Shown here: positions 17,093 to 53,626 of the stretch, in pieces
Position numbering within the stretch: position 1 is the stretch's first letter
How the letters are laid out: each line of letters starts with the position of its first letter
Source of the DNA: an uncultured Faecalibacterium sp.
GTDB lineage: Bacteria; Bacillota; Clostridia; Oscillospirales; Ruminococcaceae
Reading direction: 5' to 3'
Assembly: GCA_934540955.1 (NCBI GenBank)
Contig: CAKTCY010000002.1
Coordinates: 1 to 64,000, forward strand
Length of the DNA: 64,000 nt
The notes under the pieces: generated by a model
Databases searched by the model: none
Told to the model about the DNA's origin: nothing
What the model saw: only the letters and a program-made list of their open reading frames with translations
Program-made: the position numbers and the translations under genes

Positions 17093-17134
17093 AGATTCTG
17101 TTGTTTGCAAAATAGGAAAGGGGAAGTATTAACT

Positions 17135-17911
17135 ATGGAATCGAAGCAGAGGCTTTTGGAGCCGCAGCTCGTCCAAACGGGAAGGGCGGATCAGTTCAGT
17201 CGCAAGGTGTTCTGTAATGGAATGCGGGATGGCGTGCCCATTGCGCTGGGCTATTTTGCGGTATCGTTTTCGCTGGGTATTGCGGCGCGCAAGGCAGGCT
17301 TTACGCCGTTTCAGGGGTTTCTCGTCAGTCTGCTGAACAACGCCTCCGCAGGTGAATATGCCGCATTTGCGCTGATCATGGCAAACGCCACCTATTTTGA
17401 GGTGGCAGTCATTACCCTGATTGCCAATGCGCGGTATCTGCTGATGAGCTGCGCACTGGCACAGCGCTTTGCGCCGGAAACACCCTTCTGGCATCGGCTG
17501 CTCATCGGCTACGATGTCACGGATGAGCTGTTCGGCATTACCATCGCCCGCCTGGGCAGCCTGAATCCGTACTATACCTATGGCGCTATTCTGCTGGCAG
17601 CGCCGGCTTGGGCTTGCGGTACGGCGTTGGGCATTATAGCGGGCAACCTGCTGCCACTGCGGGTGGTCAGCGCCCTGAGCGTAGCGTTGTATGGAATGTT
17701 TCTGGCCATCATCATCCCGCCGGCTCGCAAGGACCGGATCGTTGCGGTGCTGGTCGTCATCAGCTTTGCACTGAGCTTTCTGTGCAGCTATCTGCCGGGC
17801 ATCTCGGCACTCTCCGAGGGTACCCGCACCATTCTTTTAACGGTGGCGATCTCCGGCACAGCAGCGGTGCTGTTCCCGGTCAGGCAGGAGGAAAACGAAG
17901 ATGACGCATAA
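17135..17911 (+). CDS. azlC: AzlC-family branched-chain amino acid exporter subunit
   Basis: Multi-pass membrane protein (258 aa), the large subunit of the AzlCD exporter (BrnF-type) that exports branched-chain amino acids and analogues. GMRDGVPIALGYFAVSFSLGIAARKAGFTPFQGFLVS and NARYLLMSCALAQRF are typical AzlC segments; hydrophobic stretches continue to the end. ATG 17135 has AGGGGAAG upstream. It overlaps azlD by 11 bp. Confidence 0.93.
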   Translation: MESKQRLLEPQLVQTGRADQFSRKVFCNGMRDGVPIALGYFAVSFSLGIAARKAGFTPFQGFLVSLLNNASAGEYAAFALIMANATYFEVAVITLIANARYLLMSCALAQRFAPETPFWHRLLIGYDVTDELFGITIARLGSLNPYYTYGAILLAAPAWACGTALGIIAGNLLPLRVVSALSVALYGMFLAIIIPPARKDRIVAVLVVISFALSFLCSYLPGISALSEGTRTILLTVAISGTAAVLFPVRQEENEDDA

Positions 17912-18206
17912 CAATTACATCTATATTGCAGTTATGGCACTGGTGTCCTACGCCATCCGCATCCTGCCGCTGACGCTGATCCGCAAGCCGATCAAAAACA
18001 GCTTTATACAGTCGTTTTTATACTATGTGCCGTATGTGACGCTGGCTGTGATGACCTTTCCGGCCATCATTCAGGCAACGCAGAGCCCGGTAGCCGGTGC
18101 CGTTGCATTGGTAGTTGGCATTGCTGCCGCATGGTTTGGCGCAAGCCTGTTTCAGGTGGCTGCGGGCTGCTGTGCGGTGGTGTTCGTACTGGAATTTTTC
18201 ATCTGA
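17901..18206 (+). CDS. azlD: AzlD-family transporter subunit
   Basis: Small (101 aa) membrane partner of AzlC with about four hydrophobic helices: YIAVMALVSYAIRILPLTLIRKPIKNSFIQSFLYYVPYVTLAVMTFPAI is the AzlD signature region. SD CAGGAGGAAAACG lies inside the azlC coding end, so translation is coupled. Confidence 0.92.
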   Translation: MTHNNYIYIAVMALVSYAIRILPLTLIRKPIKNSFIQSFLYYVPYVTLAVMTFPAIIQATQSPVAGAVALVVGIAAAWFGASLFQVAAGCCAVVFVLEFFI

Positions 18207-18228: not shown

Positions 18229-19065
18229 ATGAAGAAGATCCTTGTAACCGGTGCCGGCGGCTTTGTAGGCTCCCGCGTGATGCAGCAATGGGCGGGGCGT
18301 TACGAGTTGTGTGCCTTTCCCAAAGGCTTTCTGGCCGCAGCAGGGGAGGACGCCGTGCGGCAGGCGGTTTTGCAGCAGCGCCCGGATGTCATTCTGCACA
18401 CCGCAGCCATTTCGGATACCGGTTACTGCGCCGATCACCCGGAGCAGGCTTATCGCGCCAATGTGGAGCTGCCGGTCTGGCTTGCCCGGGCGGCAGCGGA
18501 GACCGGCGCAAAGCTAGTGGCCTTCAGCTCGGATCAGGTCTATGCCGGTGTCGAGCAGTCTGGCCCGCTGCCGGAGAGCATTCCGCTGCGGCCTGCCAAT
18601 GTGTATGGGCGGGGCAAGCTGGAAATGGAGCAGCGGGTGCAGGCACTCTGCCCGAGCGCCGTACTGCTGCGTGCCACATGGATGTACGATCTGCCGGGCT
18701 ACCGGCTGCCCATCCGGGGCAATCTGCCGCTGAATCTTTTGCGTGCGGCACAGCGGGGTGAAGCCGTCCGCTTTTCTGTCCGGGACTTCCGAGGCATCAC
18801 CTACGTCCGGCAGGCGGTGGCACTGCTGGAAGCTGCCCTGACCCTGCCCGGCGGGGTCTATAACTTTGGCAGTGAAAACGCCGAAAACATGGTTCTGACC
18901 GCCCGGCAGTTCGCCGAGACACTGGGAATCACGGTCGATATTCAGGAAGCGGACTGGGCACGGAACCTTGCGATGGATTGCAGCAAGCTGCGGGCGCAGG
19001 GCATCGTATTTGACACCACACAGGCAGGGCTCGCGCACTGTTTGCGGGACTATGGACTGCGCTGA
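18229..19065 (+). CDS. SDR-family sugar nucleotide-binding protein (RmlD-like)
   Basis: 278-aa extended short-chain dehydrogenase. The Rossmann motif VTGAGGFVGSR is at residues 6-16; VVAFSSDQVYAG-like LVAFSSDQVYAGVEQ and NVYGRGKLEMEQ (the Y-x3-K catalytic pair, Y126 and K130) follow. It resembles dTDP-4-dehydrorhamnose reductase/RmlD relatives, but no rhamnose pathway genes are nearby, so the substrate is unknown. Starts 22 bp after azlD and is followed by a terminator, so it may be the last gene of the azlCD transcript. Confidence 0.85.
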   Translation: MKKILVTGAGGFVGSRVMQQWAGRYELCAFPKGFLAAAGEDAVRQAVLQQRPDVILHTAAISDTGYCADHPEQAYRANVELPVWLARAAAETGAKLVAFSSDQVYAGVEQSGPLPESIPLRPANVYGRGKLEMEQRVQALCPSAVLLRATWMYDLPGYRLPIRGNLPLNLLRAAQRGEAVRFSVRDFRGITYVRQAVALLEAALTLPGGVYNFGSENAENMVLTARQFAETLGITVDIQEADWARNLAMDCSKLRAQGIVFDTTQAGLAHCLRDYGLR

Positions 19066-19254: not shown

Positions 19255-19283
19255 TTTACATCTTATCTGCATTTTGCTATAAT
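19255..19283 (+). promoter_or_regulatory. strong promoter of the NCS2 permease
   Basis: TTTACA (19255-19260), 17-bp spacer, TATAAT (19278-19283) preceded by TGC. Confidence 0.75.
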
Positions 19284-19349: not shown

Positions 19350-20747
19350 TTGAAGGAAGTCAAGCTTGAAGAAGCGGCTTATCAGTTTGAAGCCAAAATG
19401 TCCCTGCGGCAGGCCATCCCGCTGGGCTTGCAGCACGTCTGCGCCATGTTCGTGGGCAACCTGACCCCGCTGTTGATCATCACCAGCGCCTGCGGTATTG
19501 CAGGCGGTGAGTTTGCAGACCTGCAGGTCACCCTGCTGCAGAGCGCCATGTTCGTGGCAGGTATCGTCACGCTGGTGCAGTTGTTCACCATCGGACCCGT
19601 TGGCGGCGCAGTGCCCATCATCATGGGTACCAGCTCCGGCTTTATCGGCGTGTTCAACAGTGTTGTAGGCACGATGGGCGGCGGTGTGCTGGCCTATGGC
19701 GCGATTATGGGCGCATCCATCATCGGCGGTATTTTTGAAAGCGTGCTGGGCTTTTTCCTGAAGCCGCTGCGCAGGTTCTTCCCGCCGGTGGTCACCGGCA
19801 CGGTGGTGCTCTCCATCGGCCTTTCGCTGATCTCGGTAGGTATCAACTCCTTCGGCGGCGGCAACAAGGCCAAGGACTTCGGCTCTGTGGAGAACCTGCT
19901 GCTGGCACTGTTCGTGCTGGTGGTCATCCTGTTCTTCAAGCACTGGACCACCGGCTTCCTCAGCTCCTCTGCCATCCTCATCGGCATTCTGGCCGGTTAT
20001 GTGGCTGCCTTCATTATGGGTCTGGTGCTGCCCACCACCGGCGTGACTGCTGATGGCGTAGAGTTCACCAAGGCATGGGTGCTCAACTGGAGCAAGGTGG
20101 CGCAGGCCTCCTGGTTCGCAGTGCCCAAGCTGATGCCGGTCAAGGTGGTATTTGATGCCCGTGCGATCCTGCCGGTGTTGATCATGTTCATCGTTACCGC
20201 AGTGGAGACCGTGGGCGATATCTCCGGCGTGATGGAGGGCGGCATGGACCGTGAGCCCTCTGATAAGGAGCTGTCCGGCGGCGTCATCTGCGATGGCCTT
20301 GGTTCTACCTTTGCCGCACTGTTCGGCGTGCTGCCCAACACCTCCTTCAGCCAGAACGTGGGTCTGGTGGCCATGACCAAGGTGGTCAACCGCATGGCAC
20401 TGGCCTCCGGTGCTGTGTTCCTGATCCTCTGCGGCCTGATCCCCAAGCTGGGTGCGCTGATCTCCATCATGCCGCAGGCCGTTCTGGGCGGTGCAGCCGT
20501 TATGATGTTCTCTTCCATCGTGGTCAGCGGCATCCAGCTGATCACCAAGGAAAAGATGACCCCGCGCCACCTGACCATCGTGTCCGTGGCACTGGGCGTG
20601 GGCTACGGCATGGGTGCCAACAGCGGTATTCTGGCACAGGCACCGCAGGCTCTCCAGCTGATCTGCGGCGAGTCCGGTATTGTTCCGGCCGCATTTGTGG
20701 CGATCCTGCTGAACGTTCTGCTGCCCAAGAACGATATGGCAGAATAA
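19350..20747 (+). CDS. NCS2 family purine (xanthine/urate-type) permease
   Basis: Nucleobase:cation symporter-2 membrane protein, 465 aa, about 12-14 helices. LRQAIPLGLQHVCAMFVGNLTPLLI is the conserved first helix; GGAVPIIMGTSSGFIG, FFPPVVTGTVVLSIGLSLI, the family motif with ETVGDISG, and GVLPNTSFSQNVGLVAMTKVVNR are typical of the xanthine/uric acid branch rather than the uracil branch. Start taken as TTG 19350 because GAGGAGAG ends 8 nt before; GTG 19341 is possible. Neighbouring molybdenum hydroxylase genes fit a purine substrate; specificity is inference. Confidence 0.9.
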   Translation: MKEVKLEEAAYQFEAKMSLRQAIPLGLQHVCAMFVGNLTPLLIITSACGIAGGEFADLQVTLLQSAMFVAGIVTLVQLFTIGPVGGAVPIIMGTSSGFIGVFNSVVGTMGGGVLAYGAIMGASIIGGIFESVLGFFLKPLRRFFPPVVTGTVVLSIGLSLISVGINSFGGGNKAKDFGSVENLLLALFVLVVILFFKHWTTGFLSSSAILIGILAGYVAAFIMGLVLPTTGVTADGVEFTKAWVLNWSKVAQASWFAVPKLMPVKVVFDARAILPVLIMFIVTAVETVGDISGVMEGGMDREPSDKELSGGVICDGLGSTFAALFGVLPNTSFSQNVGLVAMTKVVNRMALASGAVFLILCGLIPKLGALISIMPQAVLGGAAVMMFSSIVVSGIQLITKEKMTPRHLTIVSVALGVGYGMGANSGILAQAPQALQLICGESGIVPAAFVAILLNVLLPKNDMAE

Positions 20748-20750
20748 GCT

Positions 20751-21404
20751 TTAGCCTTTTTGTCGGGCAAGGGCTTCCAGCTGCTGCAACACCTGCGGGG
20801 TGTCTGCATCCAGCAGCTCTGCGCTGTCTGCAATACAGACCGTGCGCACCTGTGCAGGGTATTTTTTAAGCAGCACGTTGCCGCCTTTATTTTCCGGCAG
20901 AGTGAGCAACTCTGGAAAGAAGCTGCTTCCAAACAGAACGGGACTTCCGACAAGCGGTGCCGGGTCGTTTTCGGCCACGGCTCCCAGACGGAAGATCTCC
21001 CGTTCTGTTTCTTTTTGCCATTGGGAGGACGGCTCCCGGCAGAAGCGCTCTGTCATGGCTTCTACCGTCTCCCGGCGCAGCAGGGGCTGGTCCCCGGGCA
21101 GAAACATACAGCCACCAAGCTCCGGCTGCTGCTCCAGCAGTGCTGAAAGCCCCAGCCGAACGGTGTCGTTGCGGCCGGGCAGACTATGCAGCAGCACCGG
21201 GACGCCCCGCGCCCTGCACAGCGCCTGCACCTCCGCCGAGCGGGTCACCACGATGCGGGCGGCGATACAGGGTGTGGCGGTAGCGGCAAAGGCACGGCAG
21301 AGCATGGGTTGGCCGCAAAAATCTGCCAGCAGTTTATTTGCGCCAAACCGGCGGCTCAGCCCGGAAGCCATGATCACACAGCCGACCGTAAGCGACTTTT
21401 TCAT
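20751..21404 (-). CDS. mocA: MocA-like molybdenum cofactor nucleotidyltransferase
   Basis: NTP-transferase fold protein (217 aa) of the MobA/MocA family; MocA adds CMP to molybdopterin to form the cytosine dinucleotide cofactor used by xanthine dehydrogenase-type enzymes. Motifs: VIMASGLSRRFGANKLL (nucleotide-binding loop) and FLPGDQPLL. Start ATG 21404 follows AAGGAGTG; eight further codons are in frame upstream. It is divergent from the hydroxylase subunit genes, sharing a 100-bp promoter region, and convergent with the permease (3-bp gap). Confidence 0.87.
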   Translation of the reverse strand: MKKSLTVGCVIMASGLSRRFGANKLLADFCGQPMLCRAFAATATPCIAARIVVTRSAEVQALCRARGVPVLLHSLPGRNDTVRLGLSALLEQQPELGGCMFLPGDQPLLRRETVEAMTERFCREPSSQWQKETEREIFRLGAVAENDPAPLVGSPVLFGSSFFPELLTLPENKGGNVLLKKYPAQVRTVCIADSAELLDADTPQVLQQLEALARQKG

Positions 21405-21439
21405 ACAAAAACACTCCTTCAGCAGCATTTTATAATAGT

Positions 21440-21464
21440 ATTATACCGAAAGCTGTGCTAAAAT
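21440..21464 (+). promoter_or_regulatory. divergent promoter region between mocA and the hydroxylase operon
   Basis: Plus strand: TGTGC then TAAAAT (21459-21464), an extended -10, for the hydroxylase operon. Minus strand: TATAAT (21445-21440) for mocA. Neither has a clear -35. Confidence 0.5.
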
Positions 21465-21507
21465 AAAAGCAGAGATATCGCAGCGATAGAAAAGAGAGGT
21501 ACTGCAC

Positions 21508-22311
21508 ATGATGACGATCCGAGAATATAAGCGGGCAGAAAGTCTGGAGGAAGCGTGGCAGCTGAACCAGAAAAAGCCAAACCGCATTTTGGGCGGCATG
21601 ATCTGGCTGAAGATGGAAACCATCAATGTCGGCACCGCCATCGACCTTTCCGGTCTGGGGCTGGATACCATTGAAGAGACCGAGGATAGCTTTTCCATCG
21701 GCGCTATGGTCACCCTGCGCCAGCTGGAACAGCACCCGGGGCTTGCCGCCTACACCCACGGTGCTATGCGTGAGGCTGTGCGCCATATCGTGGGCGTACA
21801 GCTGCGCAATCTGGCTACTGTGGGCGGCAGCATCTACAGCCGGTTCGGCTTTTCGGATGTGCTGACCATGTTCCTTGCCATGGACTGTGATGTAGAACTG
21901 TACAAGGGCGGCATCCTGCCGCTGCAGGAATATGCCCAGCGCCCCTACGACCGGGACATTCTGGTGCGGCTGATCGTAAAAAAGACACCGATGCAGCTCT
22001 ATTACCAGTCGGTGCGCAACAGCCAGACCGATATCCCGGTGTTGACCTGTGCCACCGCCCGGATGGAGACTGGTGATTACCGCATTGTTATTGGTGCGCG
22101 TCCGCTGCGCGCCGTACGGTTCGAGCTCCCGGCAGAGCCTGCCCTTGCGGCAGAACAGCTTGCCGCGCAGTTTGCTGAAAGCGTAAAGGCGCAGATCGTA
22201 ACCGGCTCCAATATGCGCGGCAGCGCCGAGTACCGCAGGCATCTGGCAGGCGTGCTGACAAAGCGCGCAGTGCTGGAGCTGGAACAGCGTAAAATGCAGG
22301 AGGAAAAGTAA
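21508..22311 (+). CDS. molybdenum hydroxylase FAD-binding subunit
   Basis: Medium (FAD) subunit of a xanthine dehydrogenase/CO dehydrogenase-type molybdenum hydroxylase, 267 aa. RILGGMIWLKME is the N-terminal FAD loop, and VQLRNLATVGGSIYSRFGFSD (residues 98-118) the TVGG FAD-binding motif; the C-terminal CO-dehydrogenase flavoprotein domain ends in SAEYRRHLAGVLTKRAV. First gene of an operon that runs without real gaps to 30691. It ends directly before the iron-sulfur subunit ATG. Confidence 0.93.
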   Translation: MMTIREYKRAESLEEAWQLNQKKPNRILGGMIWLKMETINVGTAIDLSGLGLDTIEETEDSFSIGAMVTLRQLEQHPGLAAYTHGAMREAVRHIVGVQLRNLATVGGSIYSRFGFSDVLTMFLAMDCDVELYKGGILPLQEYAQRPYDRDILVRLIVKKTPMQLYYQSVRNSQTDIPVLTCATARMETGDYRIVIGARPLRAVRFELPAEPALAAEQLAAQFAESVKAQIVTGSNMRGSAEYRRHLAGVLTKRAVLELEQRKMQEEK

Positions 22312-22782
22312 ATGCAGATCACACTTACCTTGAACGGCATCCGGGTATCCGAGGAGATCGCCCCGGATATGCTTCTGATCGATTTTGTCCGCGCACACGG
22401 CTGCAAGAGCGTCAAGCGCGGCTGTGAGACCTCCAACTGCGGTCTGTGCACCGTGTTTATGGACGATAAGCCGGTGCTGTCCTGCTCTGTGCTGGCAGCG
22501 CGTGCCGATGGACACAAGATCACCACGCTGGAGGGCCTGCAGGAGGAGGCTGCCGAGTTTGGTGCCTTTATCGCAGATCAGGGTGCAGAGCAGTGCGGCT
22601 TCTGCAACCCGGGCTTTATCATGAACGCGCTGGCCTTGTTCCGGGAGCAGCCGTACCCCACTGAAGAGCAGGTGAAGGAATACCTTGCCGGAAACCTGTG
22701 CCGCTGCTCCGGCTACGAGGGTCAGCTGCGCGGCATCATGACCTTTCTGGCATGGAAAAAGCAGAAGGAGGGCGTACAGTGA
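22312..22782 (+). CDS. molybdenum hydroxylase 2Fe-2S subunit
   Basis: Small electron-transfer subunit, 156 aa. The plant-type ferredoxin cluster ligands are C38, C43, C46 and C58 (CETSNCGLCTV...LSC), and the second [2Fe-2S] cluster ligands are C95, C98, C130 and C132 (CGFCNPG ... CRCSGY), exactly as in xanthine dehydrogenase-type proteins. Its TGA overlaps the GTG start of the molybdopterin subunit by 4 bp. Confidence 0.95.
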   Translation: MQITLTLNGIRVSEEIAPDMLLIDFVRAHGCKSVKRGCETSNCGLCTVFMDDKPVLSCSVLAARADGHKITTLEGLQEEAAEFGAFIADQGAEQCGFCNPGFIMNALALFREQPYPTEEQVKEYLAGNLCRCSGYEGQLRGIMTFLAWKKQKEGVQ

Positions 22783-25067
22783 AAACCGTCAACAAACCGT
22801 TCCGCAAAAAAGACGCGATGCAGCTGGTCACCGGCCAGCCTGTCTATATGGATGACATCATCCCGCAGGACTGCCTGATCGTCAAGCTGCTGCGCTCGCC
22901 CCATGCAAACGCCATCGTCCGCAGCATCAACACCGCCGTTGCCAAAAAAGTGCCCGGCATTGAGGCCATCTTTACTTGGGAGGATGTGCCGCAGGATGCC
23001 CGCCGTTACACGCAGGCCGGCCAGACCTACCCGGAGGCCAGCCCCTACGACCGTCTGCTCATCGACCGCCATGTCCGCTTTGTGGGAGATGTGGTGGCCA
23101 TTGTAGCCGGCAAGGATGAAAAGTGCGTGGATAAGGCACTCAAGCTTATCAAGGTAGACTACGAGGTGCTGGAGGCCGTGCTGGATTTCCACACCGCAAA
23201 GGATAACCCCATCCTTGTGCACCCGGAGGATAACTGGGAAAGCCTTGCCCCTGTGGGTGCTGACAACAAGCGCAACCTCTGTGCCCATGATGCATGCGGC
23301 AGCGGTGACATCGACGCTGTGCTGGCCGGATGCGATGTGGTCATTGACCATGTGTACCACACCAAGGCCTGCCAGCAGTCCATGATGGAGACCTTCCGCA
23401 CCTACTGCTCCATTGATACTTACGGGCGGCTGAATGTGCTCAGCTCTACCCAGATCGTTTTCCATGCCCGCCGCAACATCGCCAATGCACTGCACATTCC
23501 CAAATCCATGGTGCGTGTCTCCAAGCCCCGCATCGGCGGCGGCTTTGGTGCCAAGCAGACCGCCGTCAGCGAGGTGTACCCGGCCTTTGTGACTTGGATG
23601 ACCAAAAAGCCCTCCAAGCTCATCTTCAGCCGTGTGGAAAGCCAGACGGCTTCCTCGCCGCGCCACGAGATGGAGATGCACGTCCGTCTGGGTGCTACCA
23701 GGGACGGCATCGTGAAGGGCATTGACCTGTACACTCTGTCCAACACCGGTGCTTACGGCGAGCATGGCCCCACCACCGTGGGTCTGTCTGGTCACAAATC
23801 TATCCCGCTGTACGGCAAGGCCGAAGCCTTCCGCTTTGTCAGCGATGTGGTGTACACCAACCACATGTCTGCCGGTGCATACCGCGGCTATGGTGCTACA
23901 CAGGGTCTGTTTGCGGTGGAGTCTGCCGTCAACGAGCTGGCGCACAAGCTGAACATGGACCCCATTGCGCTGCGTCTGAAGAACACCGTGCAGGAGGGCG
24001 ATGTGATGCCCGCCTATTATGGCGCTGTGAACACCAGCTGCGCGCTGGACCGGTGCGTACTCAAGGTGCGCGAGATGATCGACTGGGAGCACAAGTATCC
24101 CGCCCGGGATATGGGCAACGGCAAGATCCGTGCCGTGGGCATGGGTATGGCCATGCAGGGCTCCGGTATCTCCGGCATGGACGTGGGCAGCGCTACCCTC
24201 AAGCTGAACGATGACGGCTTCTATACCCTGATGATCGGCGCTGCCGATATGGGCACCGGCTGCGATACTACGCTGGCGCAGATCGCCGCCGAGGTGCTGG
24301 ATTGCCCGCTGGATAACATTACTGTCTTTGGCGCGGATACGGATTCCTCCCCCTACGATTCCGGTTCCTATGCTTCCAGCACCACCTATGTCACCGGCAA
24401 GGCCACCGAAAAGTGCGCCATGAAGCTGCGGGAGCAGATCTGCAAGCTGGGCGCAGAGCTGCTGGAATGCCCGGCGGATGCCGTGGAGTTTGACGGTAAG
24501 GCCGTGTTTGAAAGCGCTGACCCCACCCGCCAAAAGACTTTGTCCGAGATCGCCTATGCGGCGCAGTTCGGCCATAAGATCCCGCTGGAATTTACCGAGA
24601 CCCACACCTCGCCCTTGTCGCCGCCGCCGTATATGGCAGGCGCTGCCGAGGTAGAGGTGGATACCGAGACCGGCGAGGTGAAGGTGCTGGAATTTGACGC
24701 CTGCGTGGACTGCGGTACGCCCATCAACCCCAACCTGACCCGTGTGCAGGCTGAGGGCGGCATTCTGCAGGGCATCGGCATGACTCTGACCGAGAACATC
24801 ACCTACGACAGAAACGGCTACCCGGAAGAGAACTCTCTGTTCCAGTACAAGATCCCTGCCCGCAACGATATCGGGCATATCCATGTGGAGTTTGAAAACA
24901 GCTACGAGCCCAACGGCCCCTTTGGCGCAAAGTCCATCGGCGAGGTGGTCATCAATACGCCGCTGCCAGCTATCTCGGACGCCATCTACAACGCCATCGG
25001 CACCCGCTTCTACGAGCTGCCCATCACCCCGGAGCAGATCGCCATGGCAGTTGCGGCTAAGCAGTAA
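22779..25067 (+). CDS. molybdopterin-binding catalytic subunit of a (selenium-dependent) molybdenum hydroxylase
   Basis: Large catalytic subunit, 762 aa from a GTG that overlaps the preceding TGA. Contains the a/b hammerhead domain (residues about 15-120) and the molybdopterin-binding domain with IGGGFGAKQ, SAGAYRGYGATQG and, near the C-terminus, GPFGAKSIGE, whose E722 is the conserved catalytic glutamate of xanthine dehydrogenases. No in-frame TGA/selenocysteine. In this group, selenium is a labile non-Sec cofactor supplied by YqeB/YqeC/SelD, all encoded just downstream. Substrate unknown; the purine permease upstream favours xanthine or another purine/N-heterocycle. Confidence 0.9.
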   Translation: MKTVNKPFRKKDAMQLVTGQPVYMDDIIPQDCLIVKLLRSPHANAIVRSINTAVAKKVPGIEAIFTWEDVPQDARRYTQAGQTYPEASPYDRLLIDRHVRFVGDVVAIVAGKDEKCVDKALKLIKVDYEVLEAVLDFHTAKDNPILVHPEDNWESLAPVGADNKRNLCAHDACGSGDIDAVLAGCDVVIDHVYHTKACQQSMMETFRTYCSIDTYGRLNVLSSTQIVFHARRNIANALHIPKSMVRVSKPRIGGGFGAKQTAVSEVYPAFVTWMTKKPSKLIFSRVESQTASSPRHEMEMHVRLGATRDGIVKGIDLYTLSNTGAYGEHGPTTVGLSGHKSIPLYGKAEAFRFVSDVVYTNHMSAGAYRGYGATQGLFAVESAVNELAHKLNMDPIALRLKNTVQEGDVMPAYYGAVNTSCALDRCVLKVREMIDWEHKYPARDMGNGKIRAVGMGMAMQGSGISGMDVGSATLKLNDDGFYTLMIGAADMGTGCDTTLAQIAAEVLDCPLDNITVFGADTDSSPYDSGSYASSTTYVTGKATEKCAMKLREQICKLGAELLECPADAVEFDGKAVFESADPTRQKTLSEIAYAAQFGHKIPLEFTETHTSPLSPPPYMAGAAEVEVDTETGEVKVLEFDACVDCGTPINPNLTRVQAEGGILQGIGMTLTENITYDRNGYPEENSLFQYKIPARNDIGHIHVEFENSYEPNGPFGAKSIGEVVINTPLPAISDAIYNAIGTRFYELPITPEQIAMAVAAKQ

Positions 25068-25073
25068 AGGCAG

Positions 25074-25772
25074 ATGCTGAATGAAAAAGAGCTTCCGTTT
25101 CTGGCAGAGAAAGGGCATATCGTTTCTCTGGTAGGCGGCGGGGGCAAAACCACCCTGCTGTATGCCATGGCAGACCACTGCGCCCGCAAGGGCTGGCGAG
25201 TACTTGTGACCACGACAACCCACATCCGGCAGCCTGCTGCCTGTTATGCACCGGATGATGCAGCGCTTACCGCCCTATGGCAAGCGGGTCACTACGCCGT
25301 GGTTGGCACCCCGGCAGAAAACGGCAAGCTGACCCTGCCGCCGCAGCTTTTGCGCCGGATGACGCAGGCAGATGCGGTATTTATAGAAGCAGACGGTGCA
25401 AAGCACTATCCCTGCAAGGTCCCGGCGGCGCACGAGCCTGTGCTGCTGCCCCAAAGCGATATCGTTTTGGCGGTGGCAGGGCTTTCGGCGCTGGATAGGC
25501 CCTTGCGGGAGGTCTGCTTCCGTTATGATGCCATCCGTCCACAGTTTTTAGAGGCTGCGCCGGATGCACCTCTTACGCCGCCTATGTTGGCGCAGCTGCT
25601 TGCAAGCACGCAGGGCGGCCGCAAGGCGGTGGGTGACCGGCAGTTTTACGCTGTGCTCAATCAGGCGGATACGCCGGAATTGCAGCAGCAGGGCATACAA
25701 ATACAACAGCTTTTGCGTCAGCAGGGCATACCGTGCGTGCTGACGCATTTTAAAGAGGAAGAACGCGCATGA
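25074..25772 (+). CDS. yqeC: selenium cofactor biosynthesis protein YqeC
   Basis: 232-aa P-loop protein ([17 protein letters not shown], loop residues 21-27) of the YqeC family, known only from genomes with selenium-dependent molybdenum hydroxylases. [10 protein letters not shown] and [15 protein letters not shown] are its other conserved parts. Biochemical role not established; thought to help build or insert the Se-containing cofactor. 6 bp after the catalytic subunit and overlapping selD by 4 bp. Confidence 0.9.
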
Positions 25773-26806
25773 GCAAGGAAGATAAGATCGTATTCTGTAC
25801 CGGGGGCGGCTGCACCGCAAAGCTGGGTGCCGGGGTGCTGAGCCGTATTCTGGAAAGGCTGCCCCGGGGCGAAAAAGACCCGGATCTTCTGGTCGGCTAC
25901 GACAGCCGGGATGATGCGGCCGTCTACCGCATTACGGACGACATTGCACTGGTGCAGACCGTAGACTTTTTCCCGCCGATGGTGGATGACCCATACACCT
26001 TTGGGCAGATCGCTGCCACAAACGCCCTGAGCGATGTCTACGCTATGGGCGGCGAGGTAAAGACCGCGCTGAATCTGGTCTGTTTCCCGGAGGATATGGA
26101 TCTGAACGTGCTGGGCGAGATCTTGCGCGGCGGTGCTGAAAAGGTGGCAGAAGCCGGCGGCAGCCTTGCAGGCGGGCATTCCATCGCAGACAGCGGGGTA
26201 AAATACGGCCTTTCCGTGACCGGCCTTGTTGACCCGCACCGGATGTACACGAACGACACCGGCGTACCCGGGGATAAACTAGTATTGACCAAGGCTTTGG
26301 GTGTGGGTCTGCTGTGCACGGCAAACCGCGTGGGCGAGGCCGCCCCGGAGGAGATGGAAGCGGCCATCCGCTCCATGACCACCCTGAACAAAACGGCGGC
26401 AGAGCTTAGCCACAAGTACCGCGTCCATGCCGCTACGGATGTGACCGGCTTCAGCTTTCTCGGCCATCTGCATGAGATGATGGGCGGCAGACTTTCCTGC
26501 ATCATCCATGCGGATGCCGTGCCGGTGCTGCCGGGCGCAGAAAAAGCAGCGGATGCGTTTTTGTACACCGCCGCCGGGCAGCGCAACCGCAACCATACCG
26601 GGCCGTTTGTCCGGTTTGAAAACGTAAGCTTTGCCATGGAGGAGGTCTTGTTCGACCCGCAGACCTCCGGCGGGCTGCTGCTGGCGGTAGACCCGGCGGA
26701 TGCAGCAACGCTGGAACAGGAGCTGTGCGCCGCGGGACTGCCTGCAAGCATTGTTGGAGAGATCCTGCCGAAACAGGAAATCGAAATAACTGTAACAGAC
26801 AAATGA
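25769..26806 (+). CDS. selD: selenide, water dikinase
   Basis: Makes selenophosphate from selenide and ATP. 345 aa with [47 protein letters not shown] and a C-terminal [12 protein letters not shown], all SelD/AIR-synthase-type motifs. The N-terminal catalytic motif reads [11 protein letters not shown]15 and K18 correspond to the essential Cys17 and Lys20 of E. coli SelD, while the second cysteine is alanine. No selA, selB or tRNA-Sec is present here, so the selenophosphate probably serves the hydroxylase cofactor. Confidence 0.95.
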
Positions 26807-26820
26807 GAGGAGTAATTAGC

Positions 26821-27435
26821 ATGGCTGAATTTATCAAAGTGGACGCACTGGGTGATGCCTGCCCGCTGCCTGTTGTCAAGGCGAAAAAGGCAATTTCCGA
26901 GCTGCAGGGCGCGGGACAGGTGGAGGTACTGGTGGACAACGAGATCGCCGTACAGAACCTGACCAAGATGGCGCAGCAGAAGGGCTATCAGTACAGCGCG
27001 GAAAAGCTGGAAGAGCGCAAGTACCGTGTGCTGTTCACACTGGGAGAAGAGGCAGACGTTCCCGCAGAGCAGGCCCCTGTCTGCGCACCGGATGCCCGCA
27101 CCGATACGGTGGTGGCTATTTCCGCTGCCGTTATGGGCGATGGCAGTGAGGAGTTAGGCAAGACCCTGCTCAAGGCCTTTGTGTTTGCACTGACCCAGCA
27201 GGACAAGCTGCCCAAGACGATTCTGTTCTATAATGGCGGCGCGGCGCTGACCTGTGAAGGCTCTGCCATGCTGGAGGATCTCAAGGCACTGGAAGCACAG
27301 GGCGTGGAGATCCTGACCTGCGGCACCTGCCTGAATTTTTACGGCCTTACCGAGAAGCTGGCCGTAGGCAGCGTGACCAATATGTACACCATTGCCGAAA
27401 AGCTGACGCAGGCCGGGAACGTGGTAAAACCGTGA
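26821..27435 (+). CDS. yedF: selenium metabolism protein YedF (TusA-DsrE fusion)
   Basis: 204 aa from ATG 26821 (SD GAGAGGAG). The N-terminal 75 residues are a TusA/SirA-like domain with the sulfur- or selenium-carrying cysteine in DACPLPVVKAKK (C14); the rest is a DsrE/F-like domain (ISAAVMGDGSEELGKTLLKAFVFAL, LTCGTCLNFYGL). This two-domain form is the YedF type that co-occurs with SelD. Probably passes persulfide or perselenide from the desulfurase encoded next to it, with which it overlaps by 4 bp. Confidence 0.9.
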   Translation: MAEFIKVDALGDACPLPVVKAKKAISELQGAGQVEVLVDNEIAVQNLTKMAQQKGYQYSAEKLEERKYRVLFTLGEEADVPAEQAPVCAPDARTDTVVAISAAVMGDGSEELGKTLLKAFVFALTQQDKLPKTILFYNGGAALTCEGSAMLEDLKALEAQGVEILTCGTCLNFYGLTEKLAVGSVTNMYTIAEKLTQAGNVVKP

Positions 27436-28580
27436 TTTATCTTGATAACGCAGCTACCACTCTGCATAAACCGCCGCAGGTGGAACAGGCTATTCTGGAG
27501 GCGCTGCGCACGGCAGGCAACCCCGGACGCGGCGCACACGAGCCCACGCTTCACGCCGCACGGATCGTGCTGGACACCCGTCTGGCACTGGCGGAGCTTT
27601 TCCATGCGCCGAACCCCTCCTGCATTGTTTTTGCTGCCAACGCAACCATGGCGCTGAACACGGTGCTGAACGGCGTACTGCGTCCGGGCGACCATGTCAT
27701 CACAACGGTATGCGAGCACAACTCCGTTCTGCGCCCGCTGTACCGGCTGCGGGCGCAGGGAGTAGAGGTCTCCTTTACCGGCGTGGATGCTGCTGCACGG
27801 CTTTGCTACGACCAATGGGAAACGCTGCTGCGTCCCACGACCCGGGCACTGGTGGTGACGGGGGCTTCCAATGTGACCGGCAACGGTATAGACCTTGCCT
27901 GCGCAGCGGACTTTGCCCACCGGCACGGCCTGCTGTTCATCGTGGATGCTGCGCAGACTGCCGGTGCGCAGCCCATTGATGTGCAGCAGCTTGGTATAGA
28001 TGCTTTGTGTTTTACCGGCCACAAGGCGCTTTTGGGGCCGCAGGGCACCGGTGGTGCTTATGTGCGCCCCGGGTTACAGGTTGCGCCGCTCCTTGTGGGC
28101 GGCAGCGGCGTGCACAGCTTTGACGAAGCACATCCTTTACAGATGCCCACTGCACTGGAGGCCGGGACACTGAACGTGCACGGCCTTGCAGGGCTGTGTG
28201 CCGGGGTGCGTTGGCTGCTGGAGCAGGGCGTAGAAAGCCTTGCTGAACGGGAAAACGCCCTTACCCGCCTGTTTTACGAGCAGGTGCGTACTGCGCCGGG
28301 CGTAACGGTGTACGGTGATATGAACCTACAGCCCCGTGCGCCCATTGTGGCGCTGAACATCGGACAGGAAGATTCTGCCCGGGTGGCAGATATTCTGTGG
28401 GAGGACTACGGCATCTGCGTGCGTGCCGGGGCACATTGTGCTCCGTTGATGCACAAGGCCCTTGGCACGGCCGAGCAGGGCGTGGTACGGTTCAGCTTTT
28501 CTCATTTCAATACGGAGCAGGAGGTGCAGCAGGCAGCGCAGGCAGTTTGCGCACTTGCCCGGGAGCTTTTATGCGAATAA
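27432..28580 (+). CDS. SufS/CsdB-like class V aminotransferase (cysteine desulfurase or selenocysteine lyase)
   Basis: PLP enzyme of 382 aa starting at GTG 27432. IYLDNAATTLHKPP at the N-terminus, PLP-lysine K198 in FTGHKALLGPQGTGG, and catalytic C336 in VRAGAHCAPLMHKALGT, the SufS (group II) arrangement. Enzymes of this subfamily, found beside yedF and selD, most likely mobilise S or Se from (seleno)cysteine. Overlaps yedF and the Se/S carrier gene on its two sides. Confidence 0.92.
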   Translation: MIYLDNAATTLHKPPQVEQAILEALRTAGNPGRGAHEPTLHAARIVLDTRLALAELFHAPNPSCIVFAANATMALNTVLNGVLRPGDHVITTVCEHNSVLRPLYRLRAQGVEVSFTGVDAAARLCYDQWETLLRPTTRALVVTGASNVTGNGIDLACAADFAHRHGLLFIVDAAQTAGAQPIDVQQLGIDALCFTGHKALLGPQGTGGAYVRPGLQVAPLLVGGSGVHSFDEAHPLQMPTALEAGTLNVHGLAGLCAGVRWLLEQGVESLAERENALTRLFYEQVRTAPGVTVYGDMNLQPRAPIVALNIGQEDSARVADILWEDYGICVRAGAHCAPLMHKALGTAEQGVVRFSFSHFNTEQEVQQAAQAVCALARELLCE

Positions 28581-28801
28581 AACGAAGCTATATCGTGCTT
28601 TCCTTCCGTACTACCTTAGAAGCCATGGAGTGGGAAAAGCAATGCAATGCCCGGCAGGTGCCCGGACGGCTGATCCCGCTGCCGCGTGAGATCTCGGCAG
28701 GGTGCGGGCTTGCATGGCGTATGCTGCCGGAGGACTGGCAAAGCTGGCAGGCAGAACTGGATCAGACACAGTTTGATAAGGTGACGCCAGTGGAGCAATA
28801 A
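28571..28801 (+). CDS. DUF3343 putative Se/S carrier-like protein
   Basis: Very small (76 aa) protein, ATG 28571 inside the desulfurase 3' end. It matches the DUF3343 pattern: YIVLSFRTTLEAMEWEK at the start, GRLIPLPREISAGCGLAWR in the middle with a lone conserved C45-G46. Family members occur with SelD/YedF and are predicted selenium or sulfur carriers; no biochemistry is established. Confidence 0.85.
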   Translation: MRIKRSYIVLSFRTTLEAMEWEKQCNARQVPGRLIPLPREISAGCGLAWRMLPEDWQSWQAELDQTQFDKVTPVEQ

Positions 28802-28820
28802 CAGAGGGAGAGGGACACCA

Positions 28821-29879
28821 ATGAACAGACAAACGCTTGCAGACGTTCTGCAAGGTACAAACCAGACCGGCAGCTATACGCTGGCTACCGTGCTGGAAGG
28901 TGCAGAGGCGGGCAGTCAGCTGCTGCTGCGGGACGGAGACGCCCTGTGGCAGACCCAGAACGCCGGGCTTTTGCAGCGTCAGCTTGCCGTTCTGCAGGCC
29001 TGTACCGCTACGGGTTTTCTTACACTGGACGGGCAGCGGGTATTTGCCGAGCGCTTTGGTGCGGTTCCGCAGCTGGTGGTCTGCGGCGGCGGTCATGTTG
29101 CTGCTGCCCTTGTAAAACAGGCAAAGCTTCTTGATCTACCTGTGCTTGCCATAGATGACCGGGAGGAATTTGCCCAGCAGCTGCGCGCCGCCGGAGCGGA
29201 TACTGTGCTCTGCGCCCCCTTTGCACAGGCACTTCAGGATGTACCCGGCGGGGCAGAGACCTATTTTGCAGTGCTGACCCGCTCCCACGCCTTTGATCTG
29301 GATTGCCTTACCCAGATTCTGCAAAAGCCTGCGGCCTATGTGGGCATGATGGGCAGCCGTGGCCGTGCCGCATTGGTACGCCGTCAGCTGTTGGAGGCCG
29401 GGTTGATGGACAGTCAGCGAGTGGAGTCGCTCTGCGCGCCCATCGGCCTTGCCATCGGCGCACAGACCGCTGCGGAGATCGCGCTTTCCATTCTGGCGCA
29501 GATCGTGCAGGTCAAAAATGCCCGCCCCCAAACCGAGGGATATCCCATCGCGTTGCTGGATGCGATGGTGCAGGCAGAAAAAGCCCGCACTCCGGCGGTA
29601 CTGGCTACCATTGTTGCGCGGCACGGCTCCACCCCGCGGGATGTGGGTGCAAAAATGCTCATCCTGCCCGATGGCAGAACCGTGGGCAGTGTGGGCGGCG
29701 GCATTATGGAGCATTACACGGTACAGGCTGCTCAGAAGCTGCTGGCACAGGCTGTTCCCGCCCTGCAATGCTTACAGCTTTCGGCTGACGGCAAAAACGA
29801 GGATGCAGCTATTGCTGCCTGCGGCGGCTCCATGGAGGTGCTGTTGCAGACACTTTGCCCCGGGGAGGAAACGAAATGA
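28821..29879 (+). CDS. XdhC/CoxI-family molybdenum hydroxylase maturation protein
   Basis: 352 aa. XdhC-type chaperones bind the molybdenum cofactor and assist its sulfuration and insertion. Here a Rossmann domain (VVCGGGHVAAAL, glycines 89-91; YFAVLTRSHAFDLDCL) occupies the front two-thirds and a CoxI-like domain with ARHGSTPRDVGAKMLILPDGRTVGSVGGGIME comes last, the reverse of classical E. coli-type XdhC. The ATG follows GAGGGAGAGGGACACC. Overlaps yqeB by 4 bp. Confidence 0.9.
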   Translation: MNRQTLADVLQGTNQTGSYTLATVLEGAEAGSQLLLRDGDALWQTQNAGLLQRQLAVLQACTATGFLTLDGQRVFAERFGAVPQLVVCGGGHVAAALVKQAKLLDLPVLAIDDREEFAQQLRAAGADTVLCAPFAQALQDVPGGAETYFAVLTRSHAFDLDCLTQILQKPAAYVGMMGSRGRAALVRRQLLEAGLMDSQRVESLCAPIGLAIGAQTAAEIALSILAQIVQVKNARPQTEGYPIALLDAMVQAEKARTPAVLATIVARHGSTPRDVGAKMLILPDGRTVGSVGGGIMEHYTVQAAQKLLAQAVPALQCLQLSADGKNEDAAIAACGGSMEVLLQTLCPGEETK

Positions 29880-30691
29880 AAAAAGACGCCTTGATCATCG
29901 TGCGCGGCGGCGGCGACCTCGCCACCGGCACCATCCACCGGTTGTGGAGCGCCGGGCTGCGGGTGCTGGTATTGGAAACCACAAAACCCGCAGCCATCCG
30001 CCGTCAGGTTGCTCTGTGTGAAGCAGTGTACGAAGGCGAAGCCACTGTCGAAGGACTGCGTGCTGTCCGCATTGAAGCATTGGAGCAGGCGCAGTCCGTC
30101 TGGGCGCAAAGCGCTGTTCCGGTGCTCGTTGACCCGGAGGGAGTCTGTATTGCCCGGGCAAAACCGGAGGTCGTAGTGGACGCCATTCTGGCCAAGCACA
30201 ACCTTGGCACCCGCCGGGATATGGCACCGCTGACCATTGCCCTTGGTCCCGGCTTTGTGGCCGGTCAGGACGTGGACGCCGTGGTGGAGACCAAGCGCGG
30301 CCACCGGCTGGGCAGGATCATCCGGGAGGGGAGCGCTATCCCCAATACTGGTATTCCCGGCGTCATCGGCGGGTACGGTGCAGAGCGGGTGATCCATGCG
30401 CAGGCTGCCGGTGTCTTTATGAATGTGCGTAAAATCGGCGATTTAGTGGAGAATGGCGAGATCATTGCCACTATCCGCACCCCAGAGGGGGCAGAGATTC
30501 CGGTTACAGCACAGATCCCCGGTATTCTGCGCGGATTGCTGCGCAGCGGCTACCCGGTCACGCCGGGCTTTAAGATTGCGGATATCGACCCCCGGCGGGA
30601 GGAGCTTTCCAACTGCTTCCTGATCTCGGATAAATCCCGCTGTATTGCCGGTAGTGTACTGGAGCTTGTCTGTGCGCAGGTGTGGCAGTAA
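29876..30691 (+). CDS. yqeB: selenium-dependent molybdenum hydroxylase maturation protein YqeB
   Basis: 271 aa from ATG 29876, last gene of the island. GGGDLATG (residues 11-18) marks an N-terminal Rossmann-like nucleotide site; later TIALGPGFVAGQDVDAVVETKRGHRLGR and GYPVTPGFKIADIDPR are characteristic of the EF2563/YqeB family, the marker for selenium-dependent molybdenum hydroxylases. Exact activity unproven. A strong terminator follows. Confidence 0.92.
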   Translation: MKKDALIIVRGGGDLATGTIHRLWSAGLRVLVLETTKPAAIRRQVALCEAVYEGEATVEGLRAVRIEALEQAQSVWAQSAVPVLVDPEGVCIARAKPEVVVDAILAKHNLGTRRDMAPLTIALGPGFVAGQDVDAVVETKRGHRLGRIIREGSAIPNTGIPGVIGGYGAERVIHAQAAGVFMNVRKIGDLVENGEIIATIRTPEGAEIPVTAQIPGILRGLLRSGYPVTPGFKIADIDPRREELSNCFLISDKSRCIAGSVLELVCAQVWQ

Positions 30692-30706: not shown

Positions 30707-30753
30707 AACCCCTGCCGTTTTGCAAAAAAGGTAGCAAATACGGCAGGGGTTTT
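30707..30753 (+). terminator. rho-independent terminator closing the selenium/molybdenum island
   Basis: AACCCCTGCCGT ... ACGGCAGGGGTT plus TTT. Works in both directions: it can also end the convergent small gene. Confidence 0.9.
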
Positions 30754-31119: not shown

Positions 31120-31623
31120 TCATTCGTGCAAACTGCGCTCCTTTTCCAGAGCGGCTTTCATGCCATGGATACGCCCCAGTGCATAGGAGAGCATTGCCGC
31201 GCACAACAGGTTCAGCCAGCCGTACCGGAACTGGTTCAGAGAGTTCGTTATGCCAAGGATCAGGTTGGCCAGACAGAGCAGGGAAAGCATCCGGTCAATA
31301 CGACTCAGGTGTGTCAGGCGGGAGTCGATATCCGAGAGCAATTCAAAGCTGCCAAGCTCCGCTTTCCGCCGGAAGTACACCCAGTTGACACAGCCGCCGA
31401 TATACTCTGCACCCAGTTCCTTTACAAAAGCACGGTAATCGCTGCTGGGGTTCATCTCCAAGCGGATGATATACTCGCCCGGTTCGCAGCGCACAAAGGT
31501 ATAAAAGGAAAACCCGGTGTTGTCCAGTACCCAGCCCTCCTGCGCCATCTCATTCAGCCAGCGCTCTTCTTTTTCAAAATCCCACACAAAGAAAAGCTTG
31601 AAAACAGTTTTCTTTTCACTCAT
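31120..31623 (-). CDS. DUF2812 domain-containing membrane protein
   Basis: 167 aa. The N-terminal soluble DUF2812 domain is clear (FKLFFVWDFEKEERWLNEMAQEGWVLDNTGFSFYTF, then EYIIRLEM and the aromatic YIGGCVNWVYFRRKAE); two hydrophobic helices near the C-terminus (MLSLLCLANLILGITNSL, WLNLLCAAMLSYAL). Its ATG overlaps the PadR regulator's TGA by 4 bp. PadR/DUF2812 pairs are common in Firmicutes; function unknown, perhaps an envelope-stress or drug-response module. Confidence 0.87.
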   Translation of the reverse strand: MSEKKTVFKLFFVWDFEKEERWLNEMAQEGWVLDNTGFSFYTFVRCEPGEYIIRLEMNPSSDYRAFVKELGAEYIGGCVNWVYFRRKAELGSFELLSDIDSRLTHLSRIDRMLSLLCLANLILGITNSLNQFRYGWLNLLCAAMLSYALGRIHGMKAALEKERSLHE

Positions 31624-31937
31624 AAGGTTTCCTCCTTTAGGATGCTCTCACCATTTGCCACAAGCTGCTGCAAACGGGCAAGCTCGTGCTTTAAGATCTG
31701 AACGCCCTCTGCAGTAAGCTGGTATTCCTTTTTGCGGCTGCCGCTTTCGGCGGGCAGGGGACGGATCCAGCCTTTTTCGCACAGAGAGGTCAATGCACCA
31801 TACAGTGTCCCGGCGGCAAGATGGACTCTGCCGCCGGAAAGCTGCTCCGTCTGCTGCATGATGCCATAGCCGTGCTGCGGATGGTAAAGAGATAACAGGA
31901 TATAATAGGTCGATTCGGTCAATGCAAGGTTTTCCAT
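31620..31937 (-). CDS. PadR-family transcriptional regulator
   Basis: 105 aa from ATG 31937 (SD GGAGTG). Winged-helix PadR core: ALTESTYYILLSLYHPQHGYGIMQQTEQLSGGRVHLAAGTLYGALTSLCEKGWI, then RKKEYQLTAEGVQIL, and a short C-terminal dimer helix (subfamily 2). Two palindromes of TATATCG type overlap its promoter, so autorepression is likely. Cotranscribed with the DUF2812 gene. Confidence 0.92.
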   Translation of the reverse strand: MENLALTESTYYILLSLYHPQHGYGIMQQTEQLSGGRVHLAAGTLYGALTSLCEKGWIRPLPAESGSRKKEYQLTAEGVQILKHELARLQQLVANGESILKEETL

Positions 31938-31971
31938 ACTGAAACACTCCATGGATTCTATCGGACGTCTT

Positions 31972-53306: not shown

Positions 53307-53626
53307 GGAAAAAACCTCCTGTTTTTGGGGCAGAGGAAACAAAAACGCCCTCTGCCAAAAATAAATTTGGCAGAGGGCGAGATAACTTCGCGGTACCACC
53401 TCTGTTTGCCGTTTCCTCACGGAAGCGGCCTTACGAGTGCACACCCCAGAGTAGAGTGACACTCCTGCGTCTTTAACGCTCGCACGCGGCACAGCCTACT
53501 AGCCTTACGCATTCAGCCTGCAGCTCCGGGAGGTATTTCCCCTGCTGTTCTGTGATCCCTTGCACCAACCGGGACTTCTCTGGACAGAACGCTTCAGGGT
53601 ACTTGTTCCCTTCATCGCCATTAACA
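53307..53626 (-). promoter_or_regulatory. tyrosine T-box riboswitch leader of tyrS
   Basis: On the minus strand the leader shows, in order, the stem I opening GGGAACAAGTACCC, a distal stem I with GAAATACCTCCC whose specifier is TAC (Tyr; 53535-53533), the T-box GGTGGTACCGCGAAGTT (53400-53384) and an intrinsic terminator. Uncharged tRNA-Tyr would pair with the specifier and the T-box bulge to favour antitermination. Confidence 0.93.
53341..53379 (-). terminator. T-box terminator of tyrS
   Basis: CGCCCTCTGCCAAA/TTTGGCAGAGGGCG stem (53379-53346) then TTTTT; the T-box side can form the competing antiterminator. Confidence 0.9.

Follow-up and report, generated by a model that had tools for sequence, protein, structure and literature searches.

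A selenium cofactor system built around an orphan SelD was described by Haft and Self in 2008 (PMC2276186), and Zhang et al. listed Faecalibacterium prausnitzii in the same year among ten organisms with an orphan SelD (PMC2432076). SelD makes selenophosphate, and full growth of C. difficile on xanthine and urate needs both selD and yqeB (PMC11448449). The locus analysed here lies in a 64-kb stretch of DNA, called the window in what follows, in which a purine-type permease gene stands beside an operon of hydroxylase and selenium genes (21508-30691, plus strand). With a probability of about 0.8, it is a Faecalibacterium operon for a selenium-dependent molybdenum hydroxylase (SDMH) that acts on a purine, in a system of the orphan-SelD type.

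By sequence resemblance, the host of the window is a Faecalibacterium: the identity of the YqeB to that of F. prausnitzii ATCC 27768 is 97%, and the Mo subunit is 98-99% identical to those of four genomes of the comparison set (G001, G004, G007, G027). The genome-wide counts given below describe relatives (31 same-genus genomes, 61 in the wider set) and not the genome of the window's own strain, the nearest genome of the set sharing 22% of sampled words with the window.

Gene content and organisation of the locus

The NCS2 permease gene is followed by a divergent MocA-like gene and then by the operon, whose frames are all open to their stops. The features are, with profile scores:

19255-19283, plus strand: sigma-70-like promoter of the permease, TTTACA-17-TATAAT, 11 of 12 matches and TG before the second hexamer (consensus match only)
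19350-20747, plus strand: NCS2/NAT-type purine permease, xanthine-permease-like (PF00860, 276 bits)
20751-21428, minus strand: MocA-like cytidylyltransferase of the molybdenum cofactor (Moco) (PF12804, 90 bits)
21432-21464, both strands: candidate overlapping divergent promoters of mocA and the operon, from alignment of upstream regions
21508-22311, plus strand: hydroxylase FAD-binding subunit (PF00941, 83 bits; PF03450, 38 bits)
22312-22782, plus strand: hydroxylase [2Fe-2S] subunit (PF01799, 82 bits; PF00111, 24 bits)
22779-25067, plus strand: hydroxylase Mo-binding catalytic subunit, 762 amino acids (PF20256, 250 bits; PF02738, 223; PF01315, 86)
25074-25772, plus strand: YqeC (HP2), with P-loop-like VGGGGKTT (TIGR03172, 219 bits, cut-off 73)
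25769-26806, plus strand: SelD, selenophosphate synthetase, Cys form (TIGR00476, 392 bits, cut-off 125)
26821-27435, plus strand: YedF, TusA and DsrE-like parts (TIGR03527, 221 bits, cut-off 110; PF01206, PF02635)
27432-28580, plus strand: class-V pyridoxal-phosphate desulfurase or putative selenocysteine lyase of EF2568 type (TIGR01977, 398 bits, cut-off 377)
28571-28801, plus strand: DUF3343 putative selenium/sulfur carrier (PF11823, 62 bits, cut-off 25)
28821-29879, plus strand: XdhC/CoxI Moco maturation factor (PF13478, 128 bits, cut-off 29.7; PF02625, 77 bits)
29876-30691, plus strand: YqeB (HP1), marker of the selenium-cofactor trait (TIGR03309, 347 bits, cut-off 220)
30707-30751, plus strand: intrinsic terminator closing the operon (-27.9 kcal/mol, z -5.7, none of 200 shuffles as stable)

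SelD, YqeB (TIGR03309) and YqeC, by which the SDMH trait is recognised, thus all score above their curated cut-offs, and an XDH-family (xanthine dehydrogenase) molybdenum hydroxylase with MoCoBD_1/2, Fer2 and FAD_binding_5 domains shares the operon with the selenium genes, as this trait calls for. The places and families proposed in the initial annotation were borne out gene by gene by coordinates and profile scores. That most junctions overlap by 4-10 bp, as it said, is only just true: five of the nine do (FeS/Mo, yqeC/selD, yedF/csd and xdhC/yqeB by 4 bp, csd/carrier by 10 bp, csd being the desulfurase-like gene), and the remaining four are gaps of 0, 6, 14 and 19 bp. The mocA gene is divergent from the operon, as had been noted, and it is also convergent with the permease gene. 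Likewise, the alignment of the catalytic subunit confirmed the retention of its catalytic Glu (E722, in GAKSIGE), and its frame runs open to the stop with no in-frame TGA, as had been claimed; the motifs AYRGYG (367-372) and GGGFGAKQ (253-260) were also located by alignment.

The identity of the Mo subunit is 36.6% with E. coli XdhD and 33.1% with E. coli XdhA. Purifying selection acts on it: in three pairs from the window's clade, the ratio of nonsynonymous to synonymous divergence (dN/dS) was 0.017-0.051. The scores for TIGR03311 Se_dep_XDH, a model with FeS and Mo parts in one chain, were 296 bits for the Mo and 109 bits for the FeS subunit, below its cut-off of 830.

The two hypothetical proteins of the system were also considered. 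YqeC is probably a P-loop-like protein: its GGGGK motif is near-invariant, and across 41 sequences neither G21, G23, G24 and K25 nor EADG vary. It has weak profile similarity to SRP/FtsY-type GTPases (E 0.009) and to ArsA NTPases, and its AlphaFold2 model has a mean confidence (pLDDT) of 96. The YqeB model (pLDDT 94.5) appears to join an N-terminal alpha/beta part to a mostly beta part, and the weak profile similarity of YqeB to lipoyl/biotin domains (E 0.0055) agrees with a biotin-carrier resemblance noted before (PMC11448449). In an alignment of 54 sequences, Cys247 of YqeB is present in 53 and Cys256 in 48. Because E. coli YqeB has Phe at position 247 and E. coli likely makes no SDMH (PMC11448449), Cys247 is a candidate selenium-handling residue and may serve as a lead.

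The permease looks like its own transcription unit, separate from the operon, judging from the promoter listed above; a promoter scan of the window gave 7 sites against 4.6 expected by chance. Its start was set at TTG 19350 rather than TTG 19332, since the latter codon overlaps a GAGGAG ribosome site. The operon promoter element would be the extended -10-like TGTGCTAAAAT (21454-21464), which 13 of 15 aligned upstream regions keep and the other two vary by one base, while the candidate promoter on the mocA side (21461-21432, minus strand) has 9 of 12 consensus matches, its ATTATA being conserved in 13 of these 15 regions. The palindrome TATCGCAGCGATA upstream of the operon was dismissed as an operator, as it is restricted to the window's four nearest relatives among 14 aligned. 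The terminator hairpin at 30707-30751 was not reported by a simple terminator scan, probably since its loop exceeds 8.

Riboswitches were rejected as clues to the substrate, the window giving a T-box leader far off (53370-53624, minus strand, 112.5 bits, cut-off 93) and one snoRNA match far below threshold near the permease; the loci of seven relatives, scanned for structured RNAs, gave 6S RNA alone and no riboswitch. Upstream of the permease are an AzlC/AzlD pair (17129-18203) and an RmlD-like gene (18229-19062), which adjoin the locus in several relatives on either side, and downstream of the operon is a DUF2812 protein with a PadR-type regulator (31120-31952, minus strand), a pair also present in the nearest relatives.

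Selenium genes and the hydroxylase in the genus

YqeB was over its cut-off in 18 of the 31 same-genus genomes, SelD and XdhC_C were so in exactly those 18, and MoaA in the same 18 plus G019 and G028. Fourteen of these selD genomes carry hydroxylase, yqeC, selD, yedF, desulfurase, carrier, xdhC and yqeB within one 20-kb stretch and in the window's order. The selenium module stands apart from the hydroxylase in the other four (G012, G015, G016, G025); G012 has the two on a single contig, separated by about 9 kb that include moaA. In the window's own clade, the selenium genes adjoin the hydroxylase in all 14 genomes examined. YqeB was also used to choose GTDB loci, 270 in all; the stretches examined for the best 80 of these contain YqeC in 68 cases, SelD and the desulfurase in 58 each, YedF in 52, XdhC in 51, the DUF3343 carrier in 49 and a Mo subunit in 37. 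Given this co-occurrence and synteny, a chance association of selenium genes and hydroxylase is implausible. Each of the 18 selD genomes has only one MoCoBD_2 protein. In one of them (G031, L143), selD and the NCS2 permease gene are each in two overlapping pieces, frameshift-like, which could be sequencing error.

SelA was found in none of the 31 same-genus genomes and SelU over cut-off in none of the 61. No same-genus genome had a tRNA-Sec over the gathering score (best score listed for the genus 44.6 versus 47), in a search run with stricter filters by which weak matches can be lost, and no tRNA gene was found in the window. Curated thresholds alone were used, because by E-value the tRNA-Sec and moaA searches give matches in each of the 14 control genomes. 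All 18 selD genomes are thereby without SelA, tRNA-Sec and SelU over threshold, SelB being outside the search. A positive case was recovered in the same family, as G035 has SelA, a tRNA-Sec scoring 70.7 bits and a selD with an internal TGA; six further genomes outside the genus have no SelA but exceed the tRNA-Sec threshold by 0.2-1.7 bits. The claim of an orphan SelD is thus supported in close relatives, and the accompanying statement that selA, selB and tRNA-Sec are missing holds there for selA and tRNA-Sec. A selenoprotein reading of the locus was rejected on the same absences and on the open, TGA-free frames.

The initial annotation had also called the locus a near-complete one-locus toolkit. 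It does hold most candidate maturation genes but lacks Moco synthesis; selenium uptake genes were not part of the search. In G001, the Moco gene cluster (L202, 2443000-2462000) is separated from the hydroxylase operon by about 0.75 Mb and contains moaA, moeA, a MoCF protein and an AFOR-family oxidoreductase, as well as modABC-like and moaC-like genes recognised by sight. With this AFOR-family enzyme beside the Moco genes, the idea that the hydroxylase is the cell's only molybdoenzyme was discarded. PF00384 was detected within the genus in G008 only. Four selD genomes, G011 (L204), G012, G029 and G031, have MoaA with MoeA_N not over cut-off, which weakens MoeA as a marker; no AFOR-like gene was seen by sight beside the Moco cluster of G011 (L204).

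Eight genomes of the genus keep an intact hydroxylase (G002, G003, G005, G009, G018, G021, G023, G024) without a match over cut-off to SelD, YqeB, XdhC, MoaA or MoeA_N. Completeness is 92-99% for four of these genomes and 77-84% for the other four. On the tree of the Mo subunit, this state requires at least three changes. Their enzymes are still under purifying selection, of a less tight kind: dN/dS was 0.05-0.25 in five pairs including them versus 0.02-0.13 in five pairs from selenium genomes, by a simple count method and with high synonymous divergence. The Mo subunits of G002 (92% complete, no selenium genes found) and G016 (selenium genes present) are 97.1% identical.

A substrate-binding protein (Peripla_BP_2) scores at least 590 bits in seven of these eight genomes (G005 L119, G002 L116, G018 L132, G023 L135, G003 L117, G009 L123, G021 L133), as compared with best matches of 114 bits in all other genomes and 86 bits among the 18 with selD. 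Since the same seven supplied the profile, only the absence elsewhere counts as a finding. In the eighth, G024, the hydroxylase is on a 5.6-kb contig. In six genomes, the distance from the FAD gene to the start of the binding-protein gene is no more than about 0.3 kb; in G021 the two are about 3.5 kb apart, with NCS2 and ABC genes in between. Profile matches in G005 and G021 confirmed the type-II ABC importer partners of the binding protein, a FecCD permease and an ATPase. ModE-like genes (57-58 bits, below the cut-off of 98.5) and NTPase/MocA-like genes are also nearby. Because these were seen by sight in the selenium-bearing G015, G016 and G025 too, the importer is the sole feature that sets the Moco-less group apart.

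Among solved structures, the relatives of this binding protein are, by falling score, 4hn9 (452 bits), 4ovk (142 bits), HI_1472 (MolA, a molybdate-binding protein; 122 bits) and BtuF (about 50 bits). From these relatives, import of molybdate would be the plain guess for the importer. Another possibility, hardly probable, is that two supply modes exist in one hydroxylase clade of Faecalibacterium: self-made Moco with the selenium maturation operon, as in the window, and an importer bringing ready-made molybdopterin or Moco to scavenging enzymes, the selenium/XdhC module being lost as a block where cofactor is imported. Several hundred organisms have already been reported to have orphan molybdoproteins without a complete Moco pathway, a question that was left open there (PMC6147048). 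A literature search aimed at Moco auxotrophy and importers turned up no paper on a Moco importer, judged by its listing.

Substrate, proposed mechanism and alternatives

The purine context was examined in 47 distinct window-type loci, each with a full-length Mo subunit 59-99% identical to that of the window and with gene content taken from limited flanks. An NCS2 permease is found in 39 of them, in 32 at an identity of at least 67%, in one at 49% and in six at 27-37%. The window permease scores 325 bits for the ncs2 family (TIGR00801, cut-off 292) and 372 bits for pbuX (TIGR03173), below the cut-off of 414; it is 32% identical to E. coli XanQ, and no match to GhxQ was reported. In the Mo subunit, the positions that we take to be R880 and E802 in bovine numbering hold Arg, and Gln as in E. 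coli XdhA and XdhD. The hint of a purine that the permease had given at first was strengthened by the linkage in the clade and by active-site residues common to XdhA and XdhD.

Matches to ygeW, ygeX, ygeY, hyuA, ygfK, ssnA and guaD over 60% of their length were absent from all 47 loci within these flanks, genes farther away being possible. YgfK was over cut-off in none of the 61 genomes (1 of 14 controls was over), its C. difficile replacement UacX not having been searched. For these reasons, a locus for uric-acid fermentation was not favoured. On the other hand, six of seven loci with a divergent Mo subunit (26-33% identity) have at least one of these genes, as do some YqeB loci whose examined stretch holds no full Mo subunit (e.g. 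L046, L048, L051, L057). The selenium-linked hydroxylases of these gut bacteria are therefore found in two contexts, with a purine permease, as in the window, or with urate ring-opening genes. The permease linkage, together with the lack of ring-opening genes in the flanks, suggests a role in purine interconversion rather than in purine fermentation.

In the proposed mechanism, the desulfurase-like protein, YedF and the DUF3343 carrier, which has been proposed to carry selenium or sulfur (PMC5322559), would release selenium and hand it over, and SelD would make selenophosphate. The MocA-like protein and XdhC would make and hold the cytidylated Mo cofactor, on which YqeB, with YqeC, may place selenium as a labile Mo=Se ligand. 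The FAD/FeS/Mo enzyme would then add or remove a hydroxyl on a purine imported by the NCS2 permease, and its likely role would be a reversible interconversion of hypoxanthine, xanthine and urate, for salvage or as a redox step.

Several observations weigh against an SDMH that acts on a purine. The Mo subunit falls under the cut-off of all 13 NCBIfam models listed, the MocA-like protein misses that of TIGR03310 (95 versus 186 bits) though it is the best among 16 families listed, and the desulfurase-like protein is below that of the SclA selenocysteine lyase (NF040779, 330 versus 525 bits). No NCS2 permease was found in eight of the 47 window-type loci and six more have the distant one, and neither a purine nor a Moco riboswitch was found at the window locus. 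Deletion of yqeC in C. difficile gave no obvious phenotype (PMC11448449). Finally, the same hydroxylase clade is present in the eight genomes without SelD and YqeB over cut-off, where selenium may be dispensable, and no column of the Mo subunit separates these eight from the enzymes of 20 selD genomes and the window, so that residues marking selenium versus sulfur enzymes were given up as a signature.

These last points speak for a rival reading, in which the hydroxylase would be an ordinary sulfido-Mo enzyme that receives sulfur from XdhC, the selenium genes only improving the enzyme or serving another target. The near-identity of the G002 and G016 subunits also fits such an enzyme. However, the eight genomes equally have no XdhC, MoaA or MoeA_N over cut-off and so are no clean sulfur controls, the selenium genes accompany the hydroxylase throughout the examined genomes of the window's clade, and the single MoCoBD_2 protein of the selD genomes leaves no second hydroxylase of this family as a target; a sulfido-Mo enzyme is in our view improbable. 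That the SelD of the window also feeds selenoproteins or selenouridine, which would make the orphan label wrong, is very improbable given the counts for SelA, tRNA-Sec and SelU and the detection of G035 by the same searches, even though these absences come from relatives' genomes, with SelB outside them.

It is unlikely that the enzyme is an SDMH with a non-purine substrate, such as nicotinate, another N-heterocycle or an aldehyde. Among solved structures, the best sequence relative of the Mo subunit is 4-hydroxybenzoyl-CoA reductase and nicotinate dehydrogenase 3hrd is among the matches, and the permease is apparently transcribed separately. Against these stand the NCS2 linkage in 39 of 47 loci, the Arg and the XdhA/XdhD-like Gln of the active site and the best-scoring NCBIfam model, which is XdhA (NF043082, 598 bits, under its cut-off of 780). 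An SDMH operon acting on a purine is accordingly the reading retained here.

Comparison with known systems

The operon and permease bring most candidate maturation genes, one hydroxylase and a purine permease into about 11 kb, and such a compact operon is a good cassette for asking which maturation genes suffice. The genus offers a natural comparison in its near-identical hydroxylases with and without the selenium module; a second one is given by selenium-linked hydroxylases that travel with a permease versus those with urate ring-opening genes. No earlier report of this split, or of the importer swap, was found in a narrow literature search.

The xdhD/ygfK reductive urate region of E. coli (PMC12507026) resembles the window in its XDH-family enzyme, YqeB, YqeC, MocA and an adjoining NCS2 permease, XanQ. 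The window differs from that pathway in that YgfK is missing over cut-off from the 61 relatives' genomes and ygeW/X/Y, hyuA and ssnA from the examined flanks of the 47 loci. In C. difficile, two of five hydroxylase loci hold all three subunits, as in the window, and selD and yqeB matter (PMC11448449), but yqeB, yqeC and selD are at separate places. C. difficile also has uricolytic ring-opening genes (PMC12507026), none of which was found in the window locus.

Closer in layout is the EF2563-EF2572 region of E. faecalis, which has an orphan SelD and shares with the window selD, yqeB, yqeC, a SirA/YedF-like, a CsdB-like and a MobA-like gene, XdhC and a hydroxylase (PMC2276186, PMC2432076). Unlike the window, it has FeS and Mo-binding domains in one chain (EF2570) and a ModE in the locus (PMC2276186, PMC2432076), whereas the window has three separate subunits and an operon without ModE.

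The closest counterpart is the Cont742 locus of F. prausnitzii (PMC2432076, Table 1), where SelD, a SirA-like protein, HP1 (YqeB), HP2 (YqeC), a MobA-related protein, XdhC and the Mo subunit are on one contig, as in the window. Columns for the FAD and FeS subunits, the desulfurase, the DUF3343 carrier and the permease are lacking in that table. Its coordinates exceed those of the window by 160,910-160,919 throughout, except for a different YedF start chosen there. Apart from the lacking columns, this appears to be the window's locus in a different strain. Of the papers that a search on this system in Faecalibacterium listed, only that of Zhang et al. bears on it, judged by the listing. The locus has been known since 2008; it is real and useful, not new.

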